Source: Candidatus Magnetomicrobium cryptolimnococcus (GTDB lineage: Bacteria; Nitrospirota; Thermodesulfovibrionia; Thermodesulfovibrionales; Magnetobacteriaceae). From it: a stretch of DNA of 64,000 bases. Below are positions 32,252 to 36,184 of the stretch, piece by piece. The stretch is from positions 62,001-126,000 of the forward strand of contig JAGYWI010000003.1 of NCBI GenBank assembly GCA_018606805.1. Reading direction: 5' to 3'. Below the pieces are notes generated by a model, which was not told the origin of the DNA, searched no databases, and saw nothing but the letters and a program-made list of their open reading frames with translations. The position numbers and the translations under genes were made by a program. How positions within the stretch are numbered: position 1 is the first letter of the stretch; each line of letters starts with the position of its first letter.

Positions 32252-33109
32252 CTATATTTTTCTTTGTTCTACGTCCAACATCGCACCGGCATCCATAGAG
32301 CTTCTTACAAGTGGGGCAGATGCTACAAAGTCAAATCCCATGTTGATAGCCTCTTGTTTATATTGTTCAAATTCCTCTGGGTGAATGTATGCAACTACTG
32401 GCAGGTTGGATTTGCGTGGCTGTAAGTATTGGCCCATTGTAACAAAATTGCAGCCTGCTTCTTTCAGGTCTTTTAAGACAGCTAAAACCTCGTCATGTGT
32501 TTCGCCAAGTCCTACCATTAGTCCGGATTTAACCTTTATGGAAGGCAAAAAGGAGGCAGCTATTTTTAAAACAGAAAGAGAAGTCTCATAATTTGCCTGT
32601 GGCCGTACGGTTGAGTAAAGGCGCGGCACTGTTTCTACGTTATGATTGAAAACTGTTGGCTGGCTTTTTAAGACTGTTTGTATGTTATTGGGATTTCCCT
32701 TAAAATCGGGGGTAAGAACCTCTATAGTAGCCGCTGGCAGGTGGCGTTTTAGGGCTTTCACGGTTTCTGCAAAGTGTGATGAGCCACCATCTTTTAAGTC
32801 ATCCCTTGTTACGGAGGTAATGACAACGTGTTTTAGATTAAGGCTTTTAGCAGCCATGGCGAGTCTTTCTGGTTCATCCGTATCTACGGGCAGCGGTGGG
32901 GCATGGTGTACGGAGCAAAAAGAGCAGTTTCTCGTGCAACGTTTGCCAAGTATCATGAAAGTGGCCGTTGGTTTTGAAAAGCAACTGCCTTTATTTGGAC
33001 AACGTGCCTCCTCACACACGCTTTGTAAACCGTGTGAGCGTAACAGTTTTTTTGTATCATGCAATCCACTAAATGTATTTGTACGTAACCACTCAGGTAA
33101 TCTATTCAT
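32252..33109 (-). CDS. lipA: Lipoyl synthase
   Basis: LipA is a radical SAM enzyme that inserts two sulfurs into octanoyl groups on carrier proteins such as the GcvH encoded at 12 kb. The auxiliary cluster cysteines are Cys32, Cys37 and Cys43 (VCEEARCPNKGSC); the radical SAM cluster is CTRNCSFC (Cys58, Cys62, Cys65). The C-terminal LVRSSMDAG holds the Ser ligand of the auxiliary cluster. I chose the ATG at 33109 (MNRLPEWLRT), giving 285 residues; the longer frame to 33148 runs into a transposon-like element. No Shine-Dalgarno is visible, and a TATAAT box ends 7 nt before the ATG, so the mRNA may be leaderless. Confidence 0.95.
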   Translation of the reverse strand: MNRLPEWLRTNTFSGLHDTKKLLRSHGLQSVCEEARCPNKGSCFSKPTATFMILGKRCTRNCSFCSVHHAPPLPVDTDEPERLAMAAKSLNLKHVVITSVTRDDLKDGGSSHFAETVKALKRHLPAATIEVLTPDFKGNPNNIQTVLKSQPTVFNHNVETVPRLYSTVRPQANYETSLSVLKIAASFLPSIKVKSGLMVGLGETHDEVLAVLKDLKEAGCNFVTMGQYLQPRKSNLPVVAYIHPEEFEQYKQEAINMGFDFVASAPLVRSSMDAGAMLDVEQRKI

Positions 33110-33116
33110 GGGTAAT

Positions 33117-33145
33117 ATTATAGCGCATTTCGATTTAATATGTAA
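33117..33145 (-). promoter_or_regulatory. Predicted lipA promoter inside the MITE end
   Basis: On the minus strand TTACAT (33145-33140), a 17-nt spacer and a perfect TATAAT (33122-33117) lie within and across the MITE end. The predicted start of transcription falls at about 33110, immediately before the lipA ATG. Confidence 0.5.
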
Positions 33146-33272
33146 CAAAAATTAAGGGCGAACACATAGGTTCGCCCCTACAAAAATACGTGTATCGTAG
33201 GGGCAGACCTATGTGTCTGCCCTATGCTTATTATCTATACTTTGTGTTTTTATCGAATCGAAATGCGCTATA
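33119..33272. repeat. MITE with 17-bp perfect terminal inverted repeats, upstream of lipA
   Basis: TATAGCGCATTTCGATT (33119-33135) and AATCGAAATGCGCTATA (33256-33272) are exact inverted repeats, with TA-type flanks that would suit a Tc1/mariner/IS630 transposase. The interior carries two REP-like hairpins: GGGCGAAC...GTTCGCCC (33155-33177) and GGGCAGAC...GTCTGCCC (about 33200-33222). It has no coding capacity, so it must be moved in trans. Decayed relatives lie at 16.1 and 56.7 kb. Confidence 0.85.
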
Positions 33273-33339: not shown

Positions 33340-33651
33340 CTATTGTTGTAAACCAACACTCTTCAACCAAGAGGTAAGTTGGTAGTCATTTAATTTCAAA
33401 TTAATATTAATAACTTCCCTTATACATTTAAATGCCTCTTCTTGTTTATCAAGTTCCAAAAAGAGCATTGCTAAATTTGCTAAAGTAACGCCTTCGCCTT
33501 TTTTATCGCCAATATCCTTCATGATGTTTAAACTTAGGAGAAGGTATTTCAATGCGTTGTCATAGTCGCCTCGTGCTTTATAAATCTGGCTAATATTATT
33601 AAGAGTAACGCCTTCGCCTTGTGTATCGCCAATATCCTTAATAGCCAGCAT
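33340..33651 (-). CDS. TPR C-terminal part of the CHAT/STAND protein, out of frame
   Basis: The 103 residues continue a tetratricopeptide array: LAIKDIGDTQGEGVTLNNIS, ARGDYDNALKYLLLSLNIMK and GDKKGEGVTLANLAMLFLEL are typical TPR units of the GDxxGEGxxLxNL class. The frame begins in the last 14 nt of the large upstream gene, whose own final TPR is cut short (LMFYNKAYAGY, then TAA). Shifting one base at about 33640-33650 would join both into one continuous array (YNKA followed by LAIKDIGD). Either a frameshift mutation split one gene, or this part is translated by reinitiation at ATG 33651. I favour a frameshift. Confidence 0.7.
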   Translation of the reverse strand: MLAIKDIGDTQGEGVTLNNISQIYKARGDYDNALKYLLLSLNIMKDIGDKKGEGVTLANLAMLFLELDKQEEAFKCIREVININLKLNDYQLTSWLKSVGLQQ

Positions 33652-36184
33652 AAGCCTTATTATAAAACATCAATGCTTCATCTATTTTCCCAAACAACTG
33701 TAAAACTAATCCTAACCTATTTAATATTCTATTATCAGTATAATCTCCAAGCTGACTATAAACTTCAAAGCAATAATAATACGCTTTTGCAAACATGGAA
33801 ACATCGTAGTAATAACGTGAAATCATATCACCAATCTCATCAATCATATCCTTAACATTAGTATCCCTAACCTTACAAAAATGTAAGAAAGCTTCTTCTA
33901 ATTCAGTTATCCCATATTCAATATTGTTAAATATATGGTAGTAATATGCACCTGCGCGTTTGTGCAAAAATGGCATTGCCTCTATTTTATCTTTACCGAT
34001 TAACTCTTTTATAATTGGTGTTGTATAGTAATACACTAAGTTCGTTAATCTATCTATAGATATTTCCACTAATGTCAGGTCGTTTAAATATAGCAAATTT
34101 TCTTCTAACACATCCTCGCTTGTGAAGTCATTATCAATTTTTTGTATAGATAAAGCCAAAATATTTACAGGGATTCTGTACTGGCTTAGTACATATAACA
34201 AAGCCCGCTGCTTATCATCAAGCATGCTGAGCAGTTCATCAAAGAGTAGGTTACTGCTTATCTTTACTTTTACATACTCTACCTCTTTTTCAAATTTCGC
34301 TATAAAACCTGGCAGTGTTCTTAAAAAAGATACTGATTTTGCATACTTTTTCTTAAATAGTTCATTAAAAAATTCTAATGCCCTGTAGTTGCCACCAAAT
34401 GCTCCATGCAAAAGCTGGACTATTTCAACAAATTCTTTGTACCCAAGCTCACTAATTTCGTCCTGCATCATGCTTGTACCTATATCCAGGTATTGGCATT
34501 TTTTCCAAAAATCATTAAACCCGACATGATTTAAATCACACGTTACAATATTCGGCAGCCCGCTTAAAGGATAACGACATGTAAGGACTAAATGAACCGG
34601 GCGTTCAGTGTAAAGGTAGTGGATAAGCTCAAATATATCTGTATACTTATCTTTAAACCTTCCGCCTGGCTCCACTTGAAATGTTTCAAGATTATCAAAA
34701 ACCAAAACCACTTGGTGATGGTTTGATAAAAGCTCACTGATAAGTAACTTAAACTTATCAATGCCCTTCTCCTTTAACGCTAACTCACTGTCAATACACC
34801 TTTTTCCCTTATCAAACAGAAAGTTTTTCAGTTCAGTTAAAAAATTATACAGAGATTTTTCTTTTTCACTAAAAAAGAATGGGTAAAATTCCTTATTTGT
34901 AGATACTATTAAACGCTGTACCATGTACTCAGCAAGGGAGCTTTTGCCAGCGCCTCCTTGTCCTTTAAGTAGCACCGGAAGTTTTTTTATGAACGACTCC
35001 ATGACTGTCTGTCTTTCACGTCTTCGACCAATGAATCTATAGTTTTCATCATGTTTAATTAACAGACGCTTTTGTTCCGTTACAAAACGATAGGACGTTT
35101 TATCATATTCGAGTTTTTCTGTAGCCTTTGCCCAGTTAACAATATCTTCCATATTACAAGCCATGTATAAATTGGGAATTACCCACTGAAACGGCTGGGC
35201 TGGAGCATTACTCTTTCTAAGTTCTTCACCTTCAAGTATCCGTATATAGTTAACTGCCGTTGTGAAGGATTGAGGGATATTTCTTTTTAATGATAATTCA
35301 CTGTAGAATTTTGCAGCAAAAGATGTGGCGTAGGTGTCAAGTATAGACATACCCATTGCAATAACCGCTGGTATATTGTGCTGTAACAGTTGGTTTGTAA
35401 CCCCAACCAAGCCCTTTTCAGTCTGTCCTTGTGCAGACTGACACGCTGAAAGCAACACAAGTGGCACTGTATGCTTCGGGTTGGTCTTTAACGCACGCGC
35501 AAAAGCATCGGCACTGACTAACTCCTTCTTTAAATTAAATTGGTCTTCTAATAACAAATAACCCTCGCCATCTTTGTATAAGCCATGTCCAGAAAAATGA
35601 ACCACATGATATTTGTTATCTTTTAATTTACTCTTAAGGGCATCCAGTGAACCTTCTGTTGTGTAGTCAATCTCTACCAGTCCAGACCACAATAATGGCT
35701 CAAAGGCTGATAATATTATATATTCCTCATCATCATAGGAAAGCTGCTTCTCCCATGGTAAATCATCGGGTGATGACAGCATTATCAAGATTTTTAAAGG
35801 AGGCGCATCATCCCATGTCTGTAAATCATCTGCCTCAATAATGTCCCCGCTTAAATATTTCACTATATTTAGAAATTCAATATTTGCAAGAGACATTTTA
35901 GAAACCGCATCGGTTGCCATGGACCACGGCAGGTTTAGTATTTCGTTATCGTTGTGAGTAAGGCGAATGACGTAATGCCTGCCGCGTTTATTTATGTCTT
36001 TTAAGACCTCAACTAACTGCTCGTTTTTATTAACGATAGTGGTCATCGCACCTTTCATAATGTCAAGTTTCTTAACATCAAGTGGAAGATGGTTTTCAAG
36101 GTCTTTTATGATCTTGCCATTTAAATCTTTTAAGACATTTACCTCAAATGGGGTTATTTGTAAGTCAATCTTTTCCCAAATCAT
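33638..36184 (-). CDS. CHAT caspase-like protease / STAND NTPase / TPR protein
   Basis: The 848-residue protein has an N-terminal CHAT (caspase-like) domain: the catalytic His200 lies in VVHFSGHG and Cys248 in LVLLSACQSA. A STAND-type P-loop NTPase follows, with the bait-like entry FIGRRRERQTVME, Walker A LKGQGGAGKSSLAE (408-415) and Walker B VVLVFDNLE. A helical region and the beginning of a TPR array close the chain. In bacteria such CHAT-NTPase-TPR proteins act as conflict or cell-suicide sensors in which an oligomerising STAND module activates the protease. Ligand and target are unknown. It overlaps a small zinc-binding gene by 20 nt, and its own C terminus continues out of frame. Confidence 0.85.
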   Translation of the reverse strand: MIWEKIDLQITPFEVNVLKDLNGKIIKDLENHLPLDVKKLDIMKGAMTTIVNKNEQLVEVLKDINKRGRHYVIRLTHNDNEILNLPWSMATDAVSKMSLANIEFLNIVKYLSGDIIEADDLQTWDDAPPLKILIMLSSPDDLPWEKQLSYDDEEYIILSAFEPLLWSGLVEIDYTTEGSLDALKSKLKDNKYHVVHFSGHGLYKDGEGYLLLEDQFNLKKELVSADAFARALKTNPKHTVPLVLLSACQSAQGQTEKGLVGVTNQLLQHNIPAVIAMGMSILDTYATSFAAKFYSELSLKRNIPQSFTTAVNYIRILEGEELRKSNAPAQPFQWVIPNLYMACNMEDIVNWAKATEKLEYDKTSYRFVTEQKRLLIKHDENYRFIGRRRERQTVMESFIKKLPVLLKGQGGAGKSSLAEYMVQRLIVSTNKEFYPFFFSEKEKSLYNFLTELKNFLFDKGKRCIDSELALKEKGIDKFKLLISELLSNHHQVVLVFDNLETFQVEPGGRFKDKYTDIFELIHYLYTERPVHLVLTCRYPLSGLPNIVTCDLNHVGFNDFWKKCQYLDIGTSMMQDEISELGYKEFVEIVQLLHGAFGGNYRALEFFNELFKKKYAKSVSFLRTLPGFIAKFEKEVEYVKVKISSNLLFDELLSMLDDKQRALLYVLSQYRIPVNILALSIQKIDNDFTSEDVLEENLLYLNDLTLVEISIDRLTNLVYYYTTPIIKELIGKDKIEAMPFLHKRAGAYYYHIFNNIEYGITELEEAFLHFCKVRDTNVKDMIDEIGDMISRYYYDVSMFAKAYYYCFEVYSQLGDYTDNRILNRLGLVLQLFGKIDEALMFYNKAYAGY

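Follow-up and report, generated by a model that had tools for sequence, protein, structure and literature searches.

The closest described systems are the Correia elements of Neisseria. In the available text of PMC2649163, these elements are up to 157 bp long, end in TATAG[CT]G and bring along a -35 as well as a partial -10; in the "Black promoter", the -10 is completed by some insertion sites. Sigma-70-like promoters are also given for several other prokaryotic MITEs in the available text of PMC10969869. Judged from literature listings, no case of a leaderless gene with a MITE inserted in its promoter was found, nor any paper that describes a long-standing leaderless lipA in the Nitrospirota order considered here. 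We analyzed a MITE upstream of lipA in a window of 64,000 nucleotides (the whole stretch of DNA that was analyzed) from the genome of Candidatus Magnetomicrobium cryptolimnococcus (G000). By sequence only, the Black promoter arrangement was found at lipA, with a -35 and a partial -10 in the element and the -10 completed by the site. The MITE was similar to the Correia elements (up to about 157 bp, with -35 and partial -10 inside) in being short and in this arrangement. However, its terminal sequence departed after TATAG[CT]G. The Correia end TATAG[CT]GGATTAA... (patterns from the available text of PMC2649163) was absent, and the lipA element ended in TATAGCGCATTTCGATT. A further difference was that the -10 at lipA seems to predate the insertion and that lipA looks leaderless. 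As in leaderless bacterial genes, the lipA -10 ended 7 nt before the ATG and no Shine-Dalgarno sequence was present, whereas the upstream half of this promoter would come from a transposon and the start is a predicted one. The lipA case appears to join the known Correia-like kind, with an apparently pre-existing -10 as its twist. We consider it probable that the MITE landed in the TA of the -10 of an existing leaderless lipA promoter and now gives the spacer and the -35-like half. The features were as follows.

32252 to 33109, minus strand: lipA, lipoyl synthase, 285 aa, ATG at 33109-33107, above the cut-off of NCBIfam PRK05481/TIGR00510
33110 to 33116, minus strand: ATTACCC, the 7 nt from the -10 to the ATG, without a Shine-Dalgarno sequence; transcription predicted to begin at the ATG or right beside it
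33117 to 33122, minus strand: TATAAT, -10-like, made of the element-end TA, the TA duplication and the flanking AT
33141 to 33146, minus strand: GTTACA, -35-like, with an 18-nt spacer, within the MITE
33145 to 33140, minus strand: TTACAT, the -35 of the sequence-only reading, with a 17-nt spacer
33119 to 33272, no strand: MITE with flanking TA duplication, 154 bp; element proper at 33121-33270
33119 to 33135, plus strand: terminal inverted repeat facing lipA, its first TA being the target duplication
33256 to 33272, minus strand: distal terminal inverted repeat
33155 to 33223, no strand: inner palindromic core with hairpins of the GTAGGGGC..CGCCC type, terminator-like on the lipA strand at 33180-33153

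The sequence-only reading had described a 154-bp element with 17-bp perfect inverted ends, and this was confirmed at 33119-33272. The element proper was 150 bp long and was flanked by TA at 33119-33120 and at 33271-33272. The 17-nt TATAGCGCATTTCGATT showed 0 mismatches at both ends, and the ends together formed a 22-nt inverted repeat that was 91% complementary. At up to 3 mismatches, TATAGCGCATTTCGATT gave five matches in the window, compared to 0.32 expected from shuffles. The element lay close upstream of lipA as had been read, with a gap to the ATG of 9 nt (33118-33110) instead of 10. It was short, non-coding and bounded by terminal inverted repeats, and an Rfam scan of the window gave no match. 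When the element was compared with G000, 40 scored places yielded 52 alignments with E<=0.001. The end sequences occurred 121 times in this genome at up to 2 mismatches, and the reversed-pattern controls gave 0. The multiple dispersed copies expected of a MITE were present, and the reading of the element as a MITE with its end within the lipA promoter held for a multi-copy family. Ends that paired at a distance of 92 to 173 bp aligned into a single family, to which two longer variants (228 and 299 bp) belonged. The short members were without the inner core of the GTAGGGGC type. In 60 genomes, the element matched in 13 including G000, and the other 12 matches were over the short inner core only. 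These short matches were to the palindromic core GGGGCGAACC..GTTCGCCC (33155-33223; loci L061-L085) in the absence of a complete MITE, which would fit a hairpin module that moves, or arises convergently, by itself. With 1 mismatch allowed, the end sequence was found in 6 of 395 genomes of the phylum: G000, three from a sister genus, and two others that each gave one match. The MITEs of the sister genus had near-identical ends and different interiors.

The edges of the family were also compared. A lipA-specific mutation of GTTACC/GTTATC, the family forms, to GTTACA as a better -35 was dropped, because GTTACA was present in 3 of 34 such ends. TATAAT was found at 16 of 97 MITE edges and TATANT at 46 of 97, compared to 10.9% (after TATA) and 31.5% in the window; no enrichment is claimed from this, since the edges are non-independent and the comparison was with the whole window and not with intergenic DNA. 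MITE edges did not generally make leaderless genes. Only the lipA edge had a coding-like ORF start within 10 nt (1 of 114 edges, at least two of which are 3-mismatch window matches, probably by chance). Other near copies (L003, L022, L116) had Shine-Dalgarno-like sequences before the start.

A TA target duplication is typical of IS630. In this family, it was seen on copy L017, which sits within a multi-copy repeat whose MITE-free relatives carry a single TA there. The clearest empty relative was L032, with CTTT-TA-TCAAAGAGAG, and L226 and L048 aligned across the L017 junction with small changes. Of 109 ends, 95 had TA as the outermost dinucleotide and 107 had TA at the next position inwards, as expected if the outer TA is the target. 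The duplication was found through these empty paralogous sites and end counts, and that of the lipA copy is carried over from them. The MITE is probably derived from IS630, because fragments of an IS630 transposase adjoined near-identical ends in the sister genus. In one genome (G010), a C-terminal piece on contig C75 was about 3 nt from a TATAGCACGTTTCGATT end and an N-terminal piece on C108 was about 121 nt from another such end; both matched NF033545. The likeness to IS630 elements and MITEs lay in the TA duplication and these fragments. A difference from IS630 elements was that the window genome gave no intact autonomous element bearing such ends. No single intact IS630 element with both ends was present in the G010 loci that were read. 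In G010 loci L295 and L297, two IS630 transposase fragments adjoined TATAGCACGTTTCGATT, and several contigs of this genome began no more than about 55 nt from the same kind of end, which looks like breakage at an IS present in many copies. Two candidates for the parent were rejected. One was L293, the sole long IS630 transposase of G000, which had no matching end nearby. In the case of ISAs1, the only genome match was a remnant by the end at C27:11926, which covered only the C-terminal part of the profile. Locus L116 (G000:C27:11000-14000) carried this ISAs1 transposase remnant and an FG-GAP ORF between MITE-type ends 1188 bp apart.

The product of lipA matched TIGR00510, lipoyl synthase, with an E value of 9e-113, above cut-off, and gave one match only in the window genome. 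On the lipA strand, the order was GTTACA-18-TATAAT-ATTACCC-ATG, and these box positions are read directly from the DNA. The sequence-only reading had placed TTACAT 17 nt from TATAAT. These boxes were present as read, but TTACAT matched TTGACA at only 2 of 6 positions. GTTACA, one base further upstream with an 18-nt spacer, was the better -35 and brought the whole to 10 of 12 consensus positions. The TTACAW pattern with the spacing TTACAT-17-TATAAT-7-ATG occurred once in the window and in 0 of 100 shuffles. The occupied site had a leaderless-promoter score of 7.63 (p 0.008); only 0.8% of 2000 dinucleotide shuffles of these 60 nt scored as high. There was no Shine-Dalgarno sequence before the lipA ATG in ATATTACCC, as had been claimed and as in leaderless genes. 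A start of transcription at the ATG is predicted from the 7-nt spacing to the -10. Among 42 other window genes, called by a simple script, none reached a score of 6 (highest 5.78), and 26 had a Shine-Dalgarno-like match of at least 4 nt. This meant that lipA was locally unusual.

Removal of the element and one TA in silico gave TTGTTATAATATTACCC-ATG, which ended in TTTTTGTTATAATATTACCC-ATG, or in a longer reading ...CTATTCGTAAATTTTTGTTATAATATTACCC-ATG. This empty site had a score of 5.52 (p 0.07 against 2000 shuffles) and a poor -35 (CTAAAC). TATAAT was found 5-9 nt before the end in 0.85% of the empty-site shuffles. Because the TA target duplication was seen on another copy (L017), we infer, rather than observe, that TATAAT stood 7 nt before the lipA ATG before the insertion. 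This depends on a TA duplication at the lipA copy itself, and the 59 relatives drawn were all outside its genus. The MITE would have improved the upstream half of the promoter at most, since the empty site already scored 5.52 with TATAAT, compared to 7.63 when occupied. In the mechanism that we propose, an IS630-type MITE would have used as its target the TA in the middle of a TATAAT that already preceded the lipA ATG by 7 nt. The terminal TA of the element and the duplicated TA would then have restored TATAAT on the lipA side. The old upstream sequence would have been displaced by the MITE end, which would provide the spacer and the -35-like GTTACA. If the site is transcribed and its -35 half matters, this hybrid promoter would start lipA transcription at or within about 2 nt of the ATG and give a leaderless mRNA. 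The leaderless state itself was probably inherited from the order and not made by the MITE.

Relatives were used to follow the region upstream of lipA. The gene was present in 58 of 60 genomes, G000 included, and 58 upstream regions were located. Of these, 57 were scored or classed; L282 was dropped because its start was unclear, the start of L275 was adjusted manually, and the f1 genomes G001, G007, G009, G010 and G011 were manually classed as operonic once their upstream ends had been read. In 18 loci, lipA was directly behind an upstream gene, and in 39 it was not. Of the 39 non-operonic genes, 18 (17 of 38 without G000) had a -35/-10 pair whose end lay 4-10 nt upstream of the ATG, at p<=0.05 with 300 shuffles per gene; genomes of one family are non-independent in these counts. 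The other 21 of the 39 had no such site at p<=0.05. The 17 relatives spanned 7 of the 12 other families (f2, f3, f5, f6, f8, f10 and f13). When the best site was taken over 0-30 nt, 19 of 39 genes had it 7 or 8 nt from the ATG. A typical relative had TTGACA-17-TATGTT-TAATAACC-ATG (L100, L101). These results suggested that leaderless lipA is probably an old trait of the order, because the sites of 17 of 38 relatives ended about 8 nt before the ATG. No MITE end was found within 400 nt upstream of lipA in 57 relatives (two with shorter upstream sequence). This indicated a lineage-specific insertion, and the expectation that the position of the element is not conserved was upheld.

The leading alternative, which we hold to be unlikely, is that the MITE newly created both the promoter and the leaderless state of lipA and replaced an unrelated promoter or that of a mazG-lipA operon. 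The same-family genomes speak for it. In most genera of the family, lipA was close behind or overlapping an upstream gene (L102, L088, L091, L096, others of f1). By a family scan, this gene was mazG in L102, whose lipA and upstream region look identical to those of Candidatus Magnetominusculus xianensis (L138), and mazG of G000 was on a separate contig, C39. The higher score of the occupied site than of the inferred empty site points the same way. However, the empty site with a TA duplication has TATAAT at the same distance, and many members of the order have a lipA promoter of the leaderless type. Neither the claim that the MITE supplied the whole promoter nor the claim that it made lipA leaderless was supported. 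What the transposon end most likely replaced was the part upstream of the -10. The immediate ancestor of G000 may have been operonic without using a leaderless promoter, because lipA of the same family was mostly behind another gene and two of its genomes lacked a leaderless-type site. In G005, an upstream ORF ended 3 nt before lipA and no such site was present, and none was present at lipA in G006. The TATAAT of the empty site may then have come with the rearrangement.

It is less probable still that lipA is read from further upstream through the MITE, with the hairpin in the leader or cut and TATAAT incidental. A same-strand TPR/CHAT gene (33340-36184) ended 67 bp before the MITE, which would allow this, and RNase III cleavage of Correia RNA is reported in the available text of PMC2649163. 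The read-through RNA across the MITE folded strongly (-79.4 kcal/mol, z -11.8), as a hairpin leader would. However, a portion of the lipA start region was caught in the fold, which made this RNA look like a poor template for translation. The terminator-like hairpin on the lipA strand (33180-33153) and the lack of a Shine-Dalgarno sequence at the ATG also argued against it. A start at the ATG would be the simplest route to lipA expression here, because an upstream transcript would carry a strong hairpin and no Shine-Dalgarno sequence and would meet the terminator-like hairpin before the promoter. A chance match in AT-rich DNA, with the true lipA promoter elsewhere and unrecognized, is very improbable: nine promoter-like sites were found in 2 kb compared to 6.9 expected in shuffles and TATAAT arose in 3.1% of the occupied-site shuffles, but the lipA site was the best of the nine and lay where relatives have theirs.

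If the hybrid promoter is real, a transposon has entered the promoter core of a core metabolic gene without killing the promoter, since its own end restores the -10. It would also suggest that lipA has long been leaderless in this Nitrospirota order. A wider idea is offered tentatively. TA-targeting, TA-ended MITEs could be neutral to the -10, swapping the upstream promoter half and keeping the start, because TATAAT is always re-formed when its middle TA is the insertion site. In this case, the gene would be a lipoate gene in which a start at AUG is selected order-wide.

The gene upstream of lipA (33340-36184, minus strand) was of the CHAT-NACHT-TPR type and looked split by a frameshift near 33640. 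Its TPR ORFs of 848 aa and 103 aa overlapped in different frames.
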